This document shows, in pieces, positions 3,023 through 54,193 of a DNA stretch of 64,000 nucleotides. A program made the translations under genes and the position numbers. Location of the stretch: the NCBI GenBank assembly GCA_010672585.1, contig JAAHGF010000017.1:51535-115534 (forward strand), in the 5' to 3' direction. The notes beneath the pieces are model-generated. The model had not been told where the DNA came from. It made no database searches and saw nothing but the letters and a program-made list of their open reading frames with translations. How positions within the stretch are numbered: position 1 is the first letter of the stretch; each line of letters begins with the position of its first letter. The DNA is from Okeania sp. SIO1I7. Lineage in GTDB: Bacteria; Cyanobacteriota; Cyanobacteriia; Cyanobacteriales; Microcoleaceae.

Positions 3023-4783
3023 ATGATTAACTCTACTCTTGAACAACTAAAAAGTAAATTTGACAAAGCTATAATTGCTGCTTTTGGTCAAGATTTAGCC
3101 AATACAGATCCAATGGTTGTTCCAGCTAGTAATCCCAAATTTGGAGATTATCAATGTAACATAGCAATGTCTTTGGCTAAGAAATTAAAGAATAAACCAA
3201 GAGCGATCGCTACTCAAATTATCGAAAAGCTCGATATTAATGATATGTGTCACCCTCCAGAAATTGCTGGACCAGGCTTTATAAATATTACCCTTAAACC
3301 AGAATATATAGAAGTTCATTTACAACAGATTATCAAAGATGAACGACTTAATATTTCCCCTACAAAAAATCCGCAGCGAGTTGTTATTGATTTTTCTAGT
3401 CCCAATATTGCGAAAGAAATGCACGTTGGACATTTACGTTCAACAATTATTGGAGATTCTTTGGCAAGGGTTCTAGAATTTCAGGGACATGATGTACTTA
3501 GGTTAAATCATGTGGGAGACTGGGGTACTCAGTTTGGAATGTTAATTACTTATTTACGAGAAGCTTTTCCGGAAGCTTTAAAAACTGCTGATGTTTTGGA
3601 TATAGGAGATTTAGTTGCTTTTTATCGACAGGCAAAAAAAAGGTTTGATGAAGATGAAGATTTTAAGGAAAAATCGAGAGAAGAAGTAGTAAATTTGCAA
3701 GCTGGTGCTGAGGATAGTCGTTATGCTTGGCAACTTTTATGTAATCAATCTCGCCGGGAATTTCAGGTTATTTATGACTTACTTGATATTGAGTTAAATG
3801 AGCGTGGAGAATCTTTTTATAATTCTATGTTGCCTGGGGTTGTGGAAGAATTAAATAAGTTAAGTTTATTGGAAGAGAATGATGGTGCTCAATGTGTATT
3901 TTTGGAGGGATTTACTAATAAGGAAGGTGAGCGTTTACCGTTAATTGTACAAAAATCTGATGGTGGTTATAATTATGCAACTACTGATTTAGCTGCTTTA
4001 TGTCATCGGATTGAAAAAGAGGGTGCAAAGCGATTAATTTACGTTACGGATGCTGGTCAAGCTAATCATTTTTCTCAAGTTTGGCAAGTGGCAAAACGTG
4101 CTGGTTGGATTCCAGAAAATGTGGAAGTTGTTCATGTTTCTTTTGGTTTGGTATTAGGAGAAGATGGGAAGAAGTTAAAGACTCGTTCTGGGGAAACTGT
4201 GAGATTAAAAGATTTATTAGATGAGGCTATAAATCGGGCGCGGAATGATTTGGAAAAGAGGCTGGAAGAGGAGAATCGTTCTGAGAGTGATGAGTTTATT
4301 CAAAAAGTATCTGAAGTTGTTGGTTTGAGTGCGGTTAAGTATGCAGATTTGAGTCAAAATAGGAATAGTAATTATGTTTTTAGTTTCGATAAAATGTTGG
4401 CTTTAAATGGGAATACTGCTCCTTATTTATTGTATGCTTATGTGCGGGTTAAAGGAATTGCTCGGAAGGGAGAAATTGAGTTTGAAAAATTAAGAGAGGA
4501 TGGCAAAATTATCTTGAAAGATGAGCAAGAGTTGGTGTTAGGAAAACATCTATTGTTATTGAATGAAGTATTAGATATGGTAGCTGTTGAATTATTGCCT
4601 AATCGTCTTTGTGAATACTTATATGAATTGAGTGGAAAATTTAATCAATTTTTTGAGAATTGCCCAGTTTTAACCTCAGAAGAACCTTTGCGTACTTCTA
4701 GATTATTATTATGTGACTTGACCGCTAGAACTCTAAAGTTGGGATTATCTTTGCTCGGAATTTCTGTTTTAGAAAGAATGTAA
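3023..4783 (+). CDS. argS: Arginyl-tRNA synthetase
   Basis: Cytoplasmic class Ia enzyme that charges tRNA-Arg with arginine using ATP. The 586-residue length is normal. The N-terminal ArgRS-specific additional domain covers about 1-95 ([13 protein letters not shown]). The HIGH signature is HVGH at 134-137, preceded by [16 protein letters not shown], which is diagnostic of ArgRS. As in most ArgRS the KMSKS loop is not canonical; its place is taken by the segment around [13 protein letters not shown] near residue 375-390. The C-terminal DALR anticodon-binding domain fills about 460-586 and ends in VLERM, the usual ArgRS terminus. Single gene, no operon partner; translation start has no evident Shine-Dalgarno. 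Confidence 0.98.
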
Positions 4784-4953
4784 TTTATAGAACCCATTTA
4801 GTATCTTTGTAGGTGGTGCAGGTTTTTGACAAAGGAGTCATACCATTTCTCAAAAACTTTTCTACATTTTGTTGAATAGGGGAGTGGGGGAGTGGGGGAG
4901 TAGACCCACCCCTCGCCCCTCCCCCTCCCAGGAGGGGAAGCAAACATAAGAAT

Positions 4954-5234
4954 AATTAGGGCTTGCTGATTAATGATCAAACCATTGACAAGTAAAGGTT
5001 TGAGTCTTCTTTGATTCCCAAGGGGTGCGCTGTTTTTAATCTAAAACCCTCAAAAAGTTAGCATAAAAGTCAAACTAAGGAAAGAAAAATTGAGGGACAA
5101 AACGCCCGCTCCTACCTCCTCGCTCCCGAACCATTTCTCCCCTCCTGGGAGGGTCCCGCGGGTGGGTTGTCTCCTGTCTCCTGTCTCCTGTCTCCTACCT
5201 CGACAAAAGACTTTCCATACGCAAACCCTAATTA
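4954..5234 (+). repeat. MITE-like family A, copy 1
   Basis: Left end AATTAGGGCTTGCTGATTAA and right end GCAAACCCTAATTA are imperfect inverted repeats. Internal signature shared with other copies: a TAAAGGTTT segment, CTAAAACCCTCAAAAAG and a pyrimidine run built of CTCCTGT units. Too short to code for a transposase, so it would be non-autonomous. Confidence 0.8.
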
Positions 5235-5525
5235 ACATTAACGCAAGTTGAAATTAGCATGCAAAGTGATTTTTCTTGTGTTAATTAGTTGACAACTGAA
5301 GTACTTCTCAAGTATAGCAACAGTTTTGGGAATTGGTATCAGGGGTCAGGAGTTAGGAGAGCGAGAAATAGAATAGGGAAAAAGGTGGAAATTTTCCCCC
5401 AGAAGAACCATCTCCCCATCTCCTAATATTTAAGTACATAAATAGACATCTCCAATCATCAAAAATAAAATCAATTATTGCACTTTTATTCATCAATTCT
5501 TTCCCCCGTCGTAGTAAAAATATAA

Positions 5526-5725
5526 ATAGGGCTTGCTGATTAAATCTCAAAGTATTGACATATAAAGACAAGTGCCTTTTTGGGCTTGGAAAAAGTGCGC
5601 CTGTTTCAGTCTAAAACGCTCAAAAAGGAGCGTATTTTAGGCCTATAGTTGAGCAGAACAATCTTGGGACAAAACTTAGCTCCTGCCTCCTACCCCTACT
5701 AAAAGACTTTTTCAGCAAACCCTAA
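5526..5725 (+). repeat. MITE-like family A, copy 2
   Basis: A 200-bp copy with left end ATAGGGCTTGCTGATTAA and right end TTTTTCAGCAAACCCTAA. It has the CTAAAACGCTCAAAAAGG and CCCCTACTAAAAGAC signatures. This is close to the basic form of the family without the longer pyrimidine tract of copy 1. Confidence 0.8.
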
Positions 5726-6184
5726 ATAATTAACACGCTATTGGGGTGCTAATTATCAAAAAGGTCTAATTACTTAATGTGGGTTACAAGAACCTATTCC
5801 ACTATTTTCAACAAACTTATTTATTTAAGTAAAATATGCTTGAAAAGCTTGATTTTTCGCTTTTAATTATCAAAATATTTAGGGTTTTTAGCAAAAATAT
5901 TATTAGTGGGATAGGTTCAACTAAAATGTAAGCATTTCTTACGGAATTCTCCGCAAATAGCAATCAGATGCATGAACATATTCAAGCAATAACTGAGGTT
6001 AGGTTATAGCCAATTTCATTAATGAATTTTAATTCTCCTTGGTGGATAATTCCCTTCTAGTATGATAATGAGTTAATCACAAATAGCTAATAGCTAATAG
6101 CTGATGTATGACTGCTGTTTGCGCAGCATTCCGGAGGAAATACTTACACTAAAATTTATTGTCAAATACCAAAATACGTAGTGC

Positions 6185-6293
6185 TATAGCAGAAGGAAGA
6201 AGGTGTTTAATTATCTAGGGGAAAAGAAAAAATCTGGCGTTGTCTGAGTTTTAAGCTTTTGATATGTCCGCGCCCTTTGCTTCCACTGCTATA
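6185..6293 (+). repeat. MITE-like family D, copy 1
   Basis: Bounded by TATAGCAG and CTGCTATA, an exact 8-bp inverted pair, with an internal GTTGTCTGAGTTTTAAGC block. The second clear copy is at 25396-25493, and the internal block also recurs near 17871 and 24440. Confidence 0.7.
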
Positions 6294-7347
6294 CATCAAA
6301 CTAGATACTACCTATCGGGCAACCTCTACATTTTTTAGTCAAGAATTATATGGACTAATGTGCTAAATTCGTCTTTCATTTTTATGGCTTACTTCTAATA
6401 GCTAAATGCTGAATACTTACTGTGATTTTCACCTCAATTTAATTGTTTTGTTTCTTCCTAAAGCTTGAGAACTTGATGTATTTAACAGAGAGTATTTTTG
6501 ATTTTAAATTTAATTAGATATTATATCCGGACTTACACACCACAAAAGCTGAAACAATTTTCAAATCTCATACCAATCCTGCTTGAGTAAACTTATACTC
6601 AAAAAAATCAAAGTAAAAAGCGGTGTATAGAATTTGAGGAGATAAGGTAACTACCCTGATTAGGAATTGCTATGAAATTCTAGGAATTACTTAAGTATTG
6701 AAGTTGGACTTAAGTATAGCATTATTTTTGGTAATTGGTATAACTACTTTGAATTTTTGCCTCAATACTCAATTTTTTCTAGCTAATTAACTCCTCGCTA
6801 TGAAAACTTCACCATAACTTCACAAATTTCGGTAAAACTTCTGATATTCTACTTATAATGTGTATTATAATTACAGGTAAATACAATTTTATGCTCTACC
6901 AAAAAATTATGATACTAGGTTAATAATTTTAATATTCTCTTGGTTGAAAATTTCATTATTAACTGAATTGATTAATTTAACCTCCTGCAATTGGGAAAAC
7001 AGTCAGGAATCCAAGTATTATACCAAATTTCAAAAAGATAGTTACAGTAGAATGAGTACAAAACTGTTAATAAACTTGCTCAGATGACAGGAAGCAAATG
7101 TAGAAATGGCTGTCTGTCGAAACACAATTATCTAGTTGACAGAACTCTGTTAAGTAAATGATAGAGGCATTTTAGTCTTATATTAAGAGAAATAGTATGA
7201 ATCCATGGCTCCTAACTACTGACTACTAGCAACCCTATACTTTGTAGCAATATTTTTTGAAACTGGTATTAAATAACCCAATTCATGGGTGCTAAATCTA
7301 CACTTCAATTAAGTTCGGTAACTATACATTAGCTTCACTATATAATC

Positions 7348-7836
7348 ATGATAAAAAAAACTGTATTAATAGTAGATGACTGCGCAATTGTCAGAAAACT
7401 AGGTTCACACATTCTTGCCAAAATGGGATTAAATATTATACTGGCAAGTAATGGTTTAGAAGCACTAGAAAAAATCAAACTAGAAAGTCCTGATTTAGTG
7501 CTTTTAGACATTATTATGCCAAAAATGAATGGCTATTCAGTTTGTCGTCAAATTAAATCAGAGCCTACAATAATGAATATACCTGTAATTTTTTGCTCTA
7601 GTAAAAATGAAGAAGTTGATGTATATTGGGCAATGAAACAAGGGGCTAATGGTTATATTAGCAAACCTGTAAAAAAATATGAGTTAATGGCAATAATGGC
7701 TAGGTTTAATATCATTGCAAATGTCAAGAACAAATATAGCTATAGCGACCAGTTTATTTATAAGCAAGGTTGTGTGAGAATTTTATCCCCAGAAATAGAA
7801 TCTAAGTCTAATTCTTATAAATTTTGTACCACTTAG
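7348..7836 (+). CDS. Single-domain response regulator (CheY-like receiver)
   Basis: A 162-residue receiver protein with all phosphotransfer residues: acidic pair D10-D11, phosphoacceptor D54 in LLDIIMP, S84/S85 at the switch Thr/Ser position and K106 in ISKPV. The receiver domain takes up about 1-122; the remaining 40 residues (SYSDQFIYKQG onward) are polar and match no output domain I know. It resembles the PilG/PilH or PatA-associated receivers of cyanobacterial phototaxis systems, but no kinase, pil or che gene is near, so the partner cannot be named. It is isolated between two repeat-rich gaps. ATG at 7348 gives the family's MxKTVLIVDD start. Confidence 0.9.
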   Translation: MIKKTVLIVDDCAIVRKLGSHILAKMGLNIILASNGLEALEKIKLESPDLVLLDIIMPKMNGYSVCRQIKSEPTIMNIPVIFCSSKNEEVDVYWAMKQGANGYISKPVKKYELMAIMARFNIIANVKNKYSYSDQFIYKQGCVRILSPEIESKSNSYKFCTT

Positions 7837-8964
7837 ATTTGCCGATAAATTGCTCAAAATATTGACAGTTAATCAATTAAGCAGAGATTACTTCAACATT
7901 TAGATTTAAAATATTAACAGTGAATTAAATGCTTGAGGGAATAGGAAACAAAGGAAGATAATTGGAGAGTTTTTATTGTTGAAAAAATGAACGTAGGGAG
8001 CGACTCAAGATGAACTTTTCAAGCCTAGATAAGTTATACACAGCAATTAGCACCTTAGCTATAAGCTTTTTCACCTTTCTAGATCGGGGTTGTTGGAGTA
8101 ACTTGGTCGATATACAGCAATCTTATTTGAGTTGTGAGATATTGTAGATTTTAGGGAATTAGGGAATAGGGAATGAGAAACACTTAAGCAATTAAATTAT
8201 CACAAATAATTGAGGATTTTTATATATAGTCTTTTTCAGTTCAATGAGAGATCAAACTTAGGGTTTTAGACAATAATAATTTACCCGCCTAACTGCACGA
8301 TATATTCGATAAAACTTACTGTCAATTCAGTTATCAATTATTCGTACCTTTCTTCTAAAATAGGGAGGGTTGAAGTGTCGGATTTTCTTTTCTATCTCCT
8401 TAAAAGGGGAGGCTTAATAGCAATTTTAAAAAAGAATACTATACTTAAGTTGTACTTCAATTATTAAGTAATTAACACAGACTGAATAACTTTTTTGATA
8501 ATTATTAGCTAGTTATTGTTAATTATGCTTATTTTTACCGCAAAATTGTGGGTATGTTCCTCCCCTTTTAAGGGGATAATAAAGAACAATTTTCATCTCT
8601 TTGTCAATCCTCTTCTTTCAAGGAGAGGTAATTATTCATTATTCATTATTCATTATTAATTGTTGAATTCTCCCCTACTCCCCCGCAATGCGAAAATGTA
8701 GCAAACATTTATCAAATTGGTATAAGACCTTATTTTTTGTATAGCAATGCGCGCTCAGGTATTTACAACTTAGAGCTATTAAGTGCAGTAAGCGAAAAGA
8801 TATACAAAAATAATGTGTAAATATGCCAGAGTGCATTGCTATAAATTCAGCTATAAGTATTCAGCATTTCCGTTTGTCATGCTACGCAAACAGATGCATG
8901 AACTTACAGGACTATTAAGGTTAGCTAGTGACCTTTTTCTTTTCTGCGGAATGCTTACCTTTTT
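7837..8964. other. 1.1-kb gene-free region
   Basis: Contains a family C-like block near 8118-8240 (TTGTGAGATATTGTAGATTTTAGG, here diverged at the ends), the TTAAGTAATTAACA block near 8463 also seen at 24562 and 25705, and a family B copy at 8537-8666. No coding frame is supported. Confidence 0.7.
8537..8666 (+). repeat. Interspersed repeat family B copy
   Basis: Starts ACCGCAAAATTGTGG, has CCTCCCCTTTTAAGGGG in the middle and ends GAGAGGTAATTATTCATTATTC. It is closest to the copy at 57388-57519, with which it shares CAATTTTCATCTCTTTGTC-type sequence. Confidence 0.75.
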
Positions 8965-9870
8965 TTAGCAAAAGACACTTAAATGTACATTTTGAGAAAT
9001 TAGTTCTAAAAGAAATAAACCTACTACAGAATTTCCTTGTTTATCTAGAGGAGGACTATAACAAACAATTATTCCTGCACTAGGAACTATTCCCAAAACA
9101 ATTCCACTTACACTAGACTTAATTGGAATTCCTATTTTTACAGCATAACAACTTGATGCTTCATACAAACCACAAGTAGTCATTAGTGCTTTAACTGTAC
9201 AACAGTGTTTTTTCCATTCAGAATTAGGATATTTTACTAACAACATTCCTAGATTAGCTAAATCAAAGATTGTGCCAGATAAACAACAGATTTGATTATA
9301 AGTATCTAGAGCAATTTTCGAGTCTTGAATATAACCCGCTTCTACCAATTTTTCAGCTATAGCTTGATTATTCTGATTAGGTAAAGACCTAACAGAAGCT
9401 AACATATTTGTATCTAAAAATAATTGACATTTTCCATACTCGTTCAGCCAAGAACAAAAATTTTCACAGCGCTCTTGAGAAGTACTTCCTGGTAGTAACG
9501 ATGATAAAGCGATCGCTCCACTATTAATCATTGGATTTCTTGGCCATCCACCATCAATTTCCAGTTGTTCTAAAGAATTGAAAGGCTTTTCTGAAGGTTC
9601 TATTCCTACTCTTTTAAATACAAAATCACTGCCAAATTCACATAATAAATACAACAGCAAAAAAGGTTTAATTGTACTCATTAGAGGCAATTTTATTTCT
9701 ACATTACCTAATGAGATAATCTGATTTTCAATACTTTGTAAAACTATGGCAAAATCATTAGGGTTTGCTTCAGCAAGTGAAGGAATATAAGTAGGTAAAT
9801 CACCTAGTTTTGTTTGAGTTAATGCTGTTTCTACCCAAGCTGCTAATTTTTGTTTGTCAATGGCTAACAT
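8965..9870 (-). CDS. glsA: Glutaminase
   Basis: Hydrolyses L-glutamine to glutamate and ammonia in the cytoplasm; serine-dependent family with a beta-lactamase-like fold. The Ser-x-x-Lys motif is visible in MSTIKPF and the substrate-pocket segments NPMINSGAIA and CLSGTIFDLANLG are intact. The frame stays open to an ATG at 9936, but the internal ATG at 9870 gives MLAIDKQKLAAW and about 301 residues, the usual family length; the extra 22 residues have no counterpart. No Shine-Dalgarno precedes either start. It stands alone. Release of ammonia may interest the reader given the Amt-cyclase gene 2.4 kb away, but no co-regulation is shown. Confidence 0.93.
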   Translation of the reverse strand: MLAIDKQKLAAWVETALTQTKLGDLPTYIPSLAEANPNDFAIVLQSIENQIISLGNVEIKLPLMSTIKPFLLLYLLCEFGSDFVFKRVGIEPSEKPFNSLEQLEIDGGWPRNPMINSGAIALSSLLPGSTSQERCENFCSWLNEYGKCQLFLDTNMLASVRSLPNQNNQAIAEKLVEAGYIQDSKIALDTYNQICCLSGTIFDLANLGMLLVKYPNSEWKKHCCTVKALMTTCGLYEASSCYAVKIGIPIKSSVSGIVLGIVPSAGIIVCYSPPLDKQGNSVVGLFLLELISQNVHLSVFC

Positions 9871-51601: not shown

Positions 51602-51669
51602 TTTGAGTTTTAGCTGTGCGGTTGGTTTGAAGATTGATCACTCTTTTTCATGTGTCTTATTATTCTCAA

Positions 51670-51964
51670 GTTGAATAAAAAGTCATGGGCAGGGACGAGT
51701 AACTCCCAATATATATATCCTATCGCGGTTTTTGAGCGGATGCAACCTTATTATCCTTTGATTTTTTTTGAGCTTCATAAAATGACAAGGTTCGACTTAA
51801 ATTTAAACAGGAGTCCATAGAATCTGTTTCACTTTTTAAGTTGAATAAAAAGTCATGCGTAGGGGCGAGTAACTCCCAATATATATATCCTATCGCAGTT
51901 TTTGAGCGGATGCAACCTCATTATCCTCTGATTTTTTTTGAGCTTCATAAAATGACAAAGTTAG
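51670..51964 (+). repeat. Direct repeat pair, 170-bp spacing
   Basis: GTTGAATAAAAAGTCATG begins at 51670 and again at 51840. The two copies of about 120-125 bp are about 90 % alike, sharing CGAGTAACTCCCAATATATA, TTTTTGAGCGGATGCAACC and TTGAGCTTCATAAAATGACA trimmed to those cores. Confidence 0.85.
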
Positions 51965-52823: not shown

Positions 52824-53344
52824 AAGAAGTTGGTTTCCCACTTACCTAAAAATTTTGATGAGTAAATCAAAAAAACTGCTACGTCTCAAAATTAGGCTGG
52901 TATGTAAGTTTTAGTTATAGGTTTTAGTATTTTAGTTTGAAAATTTTTAATTTTGTCATCAACCTCTGACAAAATTGGAGAAAAGTTTTCCCAATCAGCT
53001 AACGAAGTTTCAATATTTTTAACGCTTTTACTCGGTTGTGTGATACTCTAAATGGTAGAAAAATCCAAGGGTAAGTATTGCTTAAAAGAATTTTGAGGCT
53101 GCAAATACCTATCGTGTCGTTGTTTTTAGAGGCGATCGCCTGAATTTATTTGACGATGAATGACTAATTTTTTTCTCCTCATTTTTCGGTAGGTTGATAG
53201 ACTGAGTGTTTTGTGGTATGTGGGTGGTGACTTAGATAACCTAGCTGAGGAGCTATGGCTCTGTAGTATTTTTAGGTAGCGTTGAGGTAGAGTAATAAAT
53301 TCTCAACCCCCTACTAATAATTGATAACTGAAAAGACGGGAAGA

Positions 53345-53487
53345 ATACTAGGAACGAAAGGCAGAAACCACCACCGGAGACCAGACAATCCGAAAACCCC
53401 TAACGTAGTAGCACTGGTCGGCATATTCGCTGTCACGCCAGGCACTCCGGCAATACCAAGAAAAGCTGCACCAGCAACCGCCACGAA
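53345..53487 (-). other. Probable DGR variable region (VR) in the FGE-fold gene
   Basis: Codes for residues about 236-281 of the FGE-fold protein. Residues framed by RLLRGG and GFRIVW alternate fixed positions (CRSA) with a string of C, W, S, Y, D, Q. Codons at these positions are mostly NNC (TGC, AGC, TAC, GAC), as expected if AAC codons of an adenine-rich template were randomised. All four Cys codons here are TGC, while the three Cys in the rest of the gene are TGT. The last part (53358-53396), ending in GGTGGTGGTTTCTGCC, would be the IMH-like G/C-rich end. Confidence 0.7.
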
Positions 53488-54193
53488 GCAATCTTGTATT
53501 AGTATCTCCTTTAATTTCCCAACTACTTCCATCAGTAGGAGCACCATTATAATTATCGTGCCAAACATCTAGACACCATTCCCAGACATTGCCATGCATA
53601 TCGTATAAACCAAAGGCATTGGGAGGAAAAATTCCTACATCTGTTGTTCCTCCTCGATATTTTCCTTGAGGAGCATCGCCGTAAGGATAGTTGCCGTGGT
53701 AATTAACTAAGTCAGACGTTATAGTTTCCCCAAAATAGAAGGGAGTTATTGTCCCAGCACGACAGGCATATTCCCACTGACTTTCACTGGGCAGTGTGTA
53801 AATTTTGTCAGTTTTCTCAGATAGCTTTTGACAAAATTCTGTAGCGTTGTACCAGTTCACGGTTTCTACTGGGCGGTTTCCTCCTTTAAAGTGAGAAGGG
53901 TTTTCTCCCATAATGGTTTGATATTGGTTTTGAGTAATGGGATATTTACTCATATAAAAAGGTTGAAGGGTGACTGAATGTTGAGGGCTTTCATCACTGT
54001 CTCTTTCTGCTTCATTTTCCGGGGACCCCATGAGAAAACTTCCTCCTGGAATATAAACCATTTCTAATTTAGTACCGTTACCTAAATCTTCTATTTTTTG
54101 CCTGGTATCTCCCTGGATCTGGTTGATTATTTTGCCAGAGTCGTTGACAGTAACTATCTCAAAGTTAAATACTTCTTCTTTAGAACTAGCCAT
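53348..54193 (-). CDS. FGE-sulfatase (SUMF1/C-type-lectin fold) protein, probable DGR target
   Basis: A 281-residue soluble protein. Residues 1-40 are the cyanobacterial linker seen before such domains (FNFEIVTVNDSGKII). The FGE-sulfatase/SUMF1 domain fills about 42-272: EMVYIPGGSFLMGSPENE, YPITQNQYQ, RPVETVNWYNATEFC, LPSESQWEYACRAG and LYDMHGNVWEWC are its regular motifs. The catalytic cysteines of true formylglycine-generating enzymes are not in the expected context, so a binding role is more likely. The C-terminal 45 residues look like a DGR variable region. No kinase, RT or avd gene lies near. The product ends at 53348 with TAG. Confidence 0.9.
   Translation of the reverse strand: MASSKEEVFNFEIVTVNDSGKIINQIQGDTRQKIEDLGNGTKLEMVYIPGGSFLMGSPENEAERDSDESPQHSVTLQPFYMSKYPITQNQYQTIMGENPSHFKGGNRPVETVNWYNATEFCQKLSEKTDKIYTLPSESQWEYACRAGTITPFYFGETITSDLVNYHGNYPYGDAPQGKYRGGTTDVGIFPPNAFGLYDMHGNVWEWCLDVWHDNYNGAPTDGSSWEIKGDTNTRLLRGGCWCSFSWYCRSAWRDSEYADQCYYVRGFRIVWSPVVVSAFRS

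Follow-up and report, generated by a model that had tools for sequence, protein, structure and literature searches.

Okeania sp. SIO1I7 carries a gene whose 3' end looks as though it had been written by a diversity-generating retroelement (DGR), and this raises the question of where the element that wrote it is to be found. The gene lies in a stretch of 64,000 nucleotides, the whole of which we call the window. A first-pass annotation had taken the gene for a remote target of a DGR whose reverse transcriptase (RT) and template repeat (TR) lie elsewhere in the genome. The target part of that reading stands, with an adenine-specific variable region (VR) of DGR type, an FGE/CLec fold and no adjoining cassette, but neither RT nor TR was found in the assembly. 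We consider it probable that the window gene was once remotely targeted by a DGR, and that deletion of this element has left behind diversified proteins whose set no longer changes. The DGR-written VR is of a known kind, and the loss is well documented here.

Results

The gene occupies positions 53348..54193 on the minus strand and encodes 281 amino acids, with FGE-sulfatase as the sole Pfam domain (E 1.4e-54). The pattern of C-terminal landmarks and variable residues described in the first-pass annotation can be read as stated in the last 48 residues, RLLRGGCWCSFSWYCRSAWRDSEYADQCYYVRGFRIVWSPVVVSAFRS, and so can the division of Cys codons, which are TGC in 4/4 cases in the VR and TGT in 3/3 elsewhere in the gene. 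The description of the variable codons as mainly NNC is half right, as the 12 variable codons of the VR end in C six times, T four times, and A and G once each. The predicted fold has a mean pLDDT of 71, with residues 146-201 under 50, and its top three Foldseek matches are two PvdO chains and the Treponema DGR variable protein TvpA; PvdO (5hha) and TvpA (2y3c) are among the sequence and fold matches of the protein. The VR sits at the 3' end of this CLec/FGE-fold gene, as it does in DGR targets.

The templates against which the VR could be read come from a genome of the same genus, G004, as no TR was found in the window genome itself. TR2 of G004 (locus L069, 9477-9626) aligns to window positions 53489-53340 over 150 bp at 77% identity, placing the VR at 53340..53489 on the minus strand, with mismatches clustered at template adenines. 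At positions where TR1 and TR2 of G004 agree, the window VR is changed at 18/29 A, 3/23 C, 0/26 G and 2/19 T. The adenine excess in this VR alone (18/29 against 5/68 for the other bases) has a Fisher p of 3.4e-8, and the changed adenines became T in 11 cases, G in 6 and C in 1. Among the five non-adenine differences are those at the third bases of codons 22, 23 and 27; faithful copying of the G004 templates would have left these bases unchanged, and drift or another template may account for them. As a positive check, the cis VR of G004 differs from TR1 at 13/34 adenines and 1/77 other bases, and because this target changed almost solely at adenines we regard TR1 as a real template. Judged from sequence, 53340-53489 is a VR of the DGR-written kind, differing from its templates at adenines.

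The 3' tail of the VR (WSPVVVSAFRS and stop; 53348..53383, minus strand) resembles a TR2-type template end and is a candidate IMH, and codons 16-17 (CRS) together with this tail are TR2-like rather than TR1-like. As to the suggestion that the 3' end resembles an IMH, the tail is common to the VR and G004 TR2, but a search for an inverted repeat around it gave 0 pairs and no hairpin, so that an IMH is unproven.

The G004 cassette has intact frames and runs, in order, FGE-fold target, TR1, bAvd, RT and TR2. On L069 the target, a TPR-FGE protein, lies at 4555-7044, TR1 begins at about 7190, the bAvd-like protein is at 8038-8373 (Pfam bAvd E 9e-21), the RT is at 8394-9455 and reads GNLTSQ and YVDD, and TR2 begins at about 9472. 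The RT is 41% identical to Brt of phage BPP-1 (AY029185) over 179 residues. Among the matches listed for 39 genomes, the window genome included, those of at least 60% identity over most of the G004 RT fall in G004, G010, G024, G026, G031, G032 and G037; G021 has two frame-split pieces and G016 one fragment, and stop codons interrupt both copies in G010. In two genomes of the family the contigs that carry the DGR are short (G021 C1341, 4.3 kb; G010 C32, 4.6 kb). Beside the G004 cassette is an extra stretch (L069 10494-12138) without counterpart in the window genome; we take its frame to be TnpB-like.

Dispersed VRs of the same bias are found across the window genome, a 9.48-Mb assembly of 109 contigs that is 99.99% complete. 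This genome has 20 FGE matches, and four other genomes of the genus have 17-28. A DNA search of it with the region of the VR gave 10 matches, made up of the query region, eight further FGE 3' ends and a 30-base match that lies outside the gene, and a search with G004 TR2 gave 12 matches at FGE-type ends, three of them in a tandem FGE array on contig C66. Two matches on C88 were rejected as a TR, both lying in frame within kinase-FGE genes; these two are the paralogs scanned with Pfam, and both are kinase-FGE fusions. From the fetched loci we took 13 VR-like ends of 37 residues each, nine dispersed (the window VR included) and four from the C66 array. Set against TR1, every one of the nine dispersed VRs is changed more often at adenines than at other bases (Fisher p 6e-8 to 0.022). 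When they are compared with one another, positions 1-2 of the 12 variable codons differ in 62.0% of cases, where the gene body has 17.7%, and C/T third bases differ in 10.9%, where it has 23.7%. Such sparing of the third base argues for template copying with adenine errors, since selection on amino acids would not spare a silent base. The contrast falls to 19.0% against 21.8% when all 13 ends are taken together.

Comparison of sister loci between species separates these two groups of VRs. The compared loci share blocks of at least 90% identity, pairs with body identity below 0.84 or fewer than 250 aligned bases being left out, and yield 16 pairs; the window genome supplies a gene to 10 of them, and the window gene is in none. 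Identity in these pairs is 0.84-0.95 in the gene body and 0.84-0.96 at non-adenine VR sites, and 0.28-0.59 at adenine sites; five of the other dispersed VRs of the window genome have sister-species copies of this sort. The four C66 array VRs have best other-species partners 0.93-1.00 identical at adenine sites, among partners listed above 0.85 and not counting L143, which belongs to the window genome. To judge by these alignments, the 3'-terminal VRs appear to have been rewritten since the species split, and the C66 array does not. As the array VRs are near identical and three of the four lack a significant adenine excess against TR1 (p 0.078, 0.2 and 0.81), not every VR-like end appears to have been written by a DGR recently. 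The array (L037, G000:C66:173000-184000), with VR-like ends near identical across species, offers a natural frozen control. A different type of end occurs in Okeania sp. SIO2B3, where L149 has a flank 97.4% identical over 2.6 kb to that of L033 (locus C15) and its FGE gene ends in another VR type, of 38 residues.

Neither avd nor RT has a significant match within the 64-kb window, and the window gene was therefore a remote target. No DGR-type RT was found in the 9.48-Mb, 109-contig assembly with the RVT_1 profile or with Brt and the G004 RT as queries. Fourteen RVT_1 matches occur, 11 of them reading QGGVxSP; one reads LGCPLSP with an internal stop (L020, rejected as a DGR RT on both counts), one is decayed at both motifs, and one is partial (L022, a frame without the motif region). 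The decayed match, L021, has RGGVISS and YGSS at the motif places and was likewise rejected as a DGR RT; it is presumably a decayed group II intron RT. The best match to the G004 RT is 28% identical (E 1.1e-14), and the best to BPP-1 Brt 26%. The PF05635 profile has nine matches, all rejected as Avd because each is best matched by the 23S_rRNA_IVP family; one of them scores 25.1 bits against bAvd as well, short of the cut-off of 40.

No TR was found in the window genome by DNA search or with a 35-base TR-core pattern allowing up to 3 mismatches. With G004 as positive control, this pattern found the two exact TR copies there, and its one site in the window genome is a VR, with 3 mismatches. The TR-flanking spacer and the avd-RT DNA of G004 gave no match in the window genome, in DNA searches run without an in-search control. 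The first-pass annotation had named the absence of an adenine-specific TR as grounds for giving up its reading; such a repeat is absent as far as 109 contigs allow, but the DGR origin survives because cognate TRs exist in G004.

The place of the cassette can be compared in five genomes of the genus, and at this syntenic locus one of the five, G004, has it. The two genes that flank it are conserved and, we assume, menF- and menD-like. In the window genome, locus C28 corresponds by synteny to the G004 cassette, with identities of 94% for the target part, 84% for the FGE region with its VR, 95.3% for the next gene and 96.6% for the menD-like gene. It is assembled without the cassette, running from FGE and VR to the next gene and on to the menD-like gene, and the part absent corresponds to L069 about 7117-9854. 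G001 still has two stubs at this locus, a TR stub at the end of a 51-bp stretch (90%) and 36 bp from the beginning of avd (92%), and these stubs speak for loss rather than for gain in G004. G003 has an insertion ahead of the VR, and its deletion begins inside the VR; in G002 homology breaks off within the FGE body and is picked up again at the menD-like gene. The left junctions of the lost cassette differ, and the right-junction sequence is common to the window genome, G001 and G003, which blurs the number of losses. Adenine-site identity between the window genome and G001 at this locus is 0.52, which argues that diversification continued after their split. By eye, the two stubs in G001 are separated by foreign sequence that contains short repeats and what may be an S23-like gene (L227 about 7736-9031).

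The window gene itself lies between dnaJ and a GST gene, and G002, G003 and G004 have the same flanks (L228, L229 and L230), with only about the first 34 FGE codons remaining at the site. None of these three relatives has a full syntenic ortholog. An element of about 314 bp lies downstream of the gene (52905..53217, minus strand), without an intact frame in translated copies; it is 94.6-96.2% identical between the window and the three relatives, and FGE remnant and element together are 93-96% alike among the relatives. Judging by the aligned flanks, the window gene is a retained or regained copy. The element also lies between TR1 and avd in G004, has about 10 matching places in the window genome, and several of its copies are near FGE genes. 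We considered it as the mark of a cassette deleted at the window locus and rejected it, as it is dispersed and not diagnostic of a DGR. Downstream of dnaJ, a direct repeat of about 100 bp (TTGAATAAAAAGTCATG...) is visible by eye, and as multiple matches in the comparison with the relatives, at window positions 51669-51960.

Discussion

These results suggest a history in which TR RNA would have been reverse-transcribed with adenine errors and the cDNA would have replaced the 3' end of the window FGE-fold gene in trans, in keeping with the adenine pattern and template-like third bases that we observe. The chemistry and steps of retrohoming are those of known DGRs. At least eight other dispersed FGE-fold genes carry VRs of the same bias, and sister genes diverge at adenine sites. 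The cassette (TR1, avd, RT and TR2), present in a sister species and missing from the assembled locus here, would later have been deleted between the menF- and menD-like genes in this lineage. Diversification would have ended with that deletion, and the VR is probably frozen now, since the machinery is missing. We infer that the variable face binds a ligand.

Other histories have to be weighed against this one. That the window gene is an active remote target still, its RT and TR missed through a gap in the assembly or the loss of a replicon, appears unlikely to us. The assembly is in 109 contigs, one FGE gene is cut off where a 6-kb contig ends, and the DGR contigs of G021 and G010 are short. 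The VRs of the window genome, moreover, differ at adenine sites even from the G001 and G004 copies, so that activity would have outlasted those splits and a cassette would have been needed until recently. Against this stand the 99.99% completeness, the syntenic locus assembled without a cassette, and searches with RVT_1, Brt, the G004 RT, TR and DNA queries that gave no RT, TR or cassette fragment. We also doubt strongly that a DGR-bearing relative passed the gene on in diversified form, by horizontal transfer or gene conversion, with no rewriting afterwards in this lineage. All three syntenic relatives keep only the remnant at the site, as such an arrival would have it, but the close similarity of the remnant and the downstream element fits loss there better than gain here, and other FGE genes of the window genome also have lineage-specific VRs.

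It is very improbable that no DGR was involved and that the binding face varies through ordinary diversifying selection in a duplicated FGE family. FGE relatives are numerous in the genus and binding faces vary in many families; however, the changes track template adenines, third bases of the scrambled codons are more alike than the gene body in nine dispersed genes, and cognate TRs adjoin an RT in the same genus.

Our preferred reading, a target outliving its deleted DGR, may extend to the genus. It is conceivable, and we offer it tentatively, that the genus repeatedly discards the DGR and keeps the diversified repertoire, the retroelement being a transient mutator and its products a fixed library of binding proteins. 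The basis for this is that four of five genomes lack the cassette at its syntenic locus, with different left junctions. Adenine sites differ between orthologs of the cassette-less genomes, from which activity would have continued after their split. As the right junction is alike in three genomes, the cassette may instead have been deleted just once, early on, and the junctions trimmed later, with a second cassette active for some time.

DGRs are usually studied intact, and in this case related targets occur both in a sister species that has the cassette and in ones that lack it. Such pairs make it possible to test whether selection keeps frozen VRs once the mutator has been lost, and at what rate VRs drift. 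They also indicate that searches for RTs alone miss repertoires made by DGRs.

Adenine-specific transfer from TR to VR is shared with the DGR of BPP-1. Unlike the window gene, the target of that DGR (Brt, TR and the Mtd VR; AY029185) is a phage tail protein written in cis by a functional cassette. A limited literature search on DGR loss and on Okeania DGRs gave nothing more direct than degenerate loci in Thiohalocapsa and a remark on a Nostoc paralog. The Thiohalocapsa PB-PSB1 loci described in PMC10907252 are alike in having targets where key machinery is missing or pseudogenized; they differ in that every class has one complete locus left in that genome, and in that diversification was found at every incomplete locus except one. 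Also close are the cyanobacterial CLec DGRs surveyed by Vallota-Eastman et al. 2020 (PMC7517822). Their VR is likewise 3'-terminal and lies in a C-terminal CLec module; serine kinase fusions and dispersed remote targets occur there too, with RTs of a cyanobacterial clade. That survey was built on genomes with complete cassettes, whereas the window genome has many targets and no detectable cassette. In the same survey, one Nostoc paralog, all3226, is described as having remnant TR-VR homology, and removal of the machinery after a good variant had been selected is suggested.
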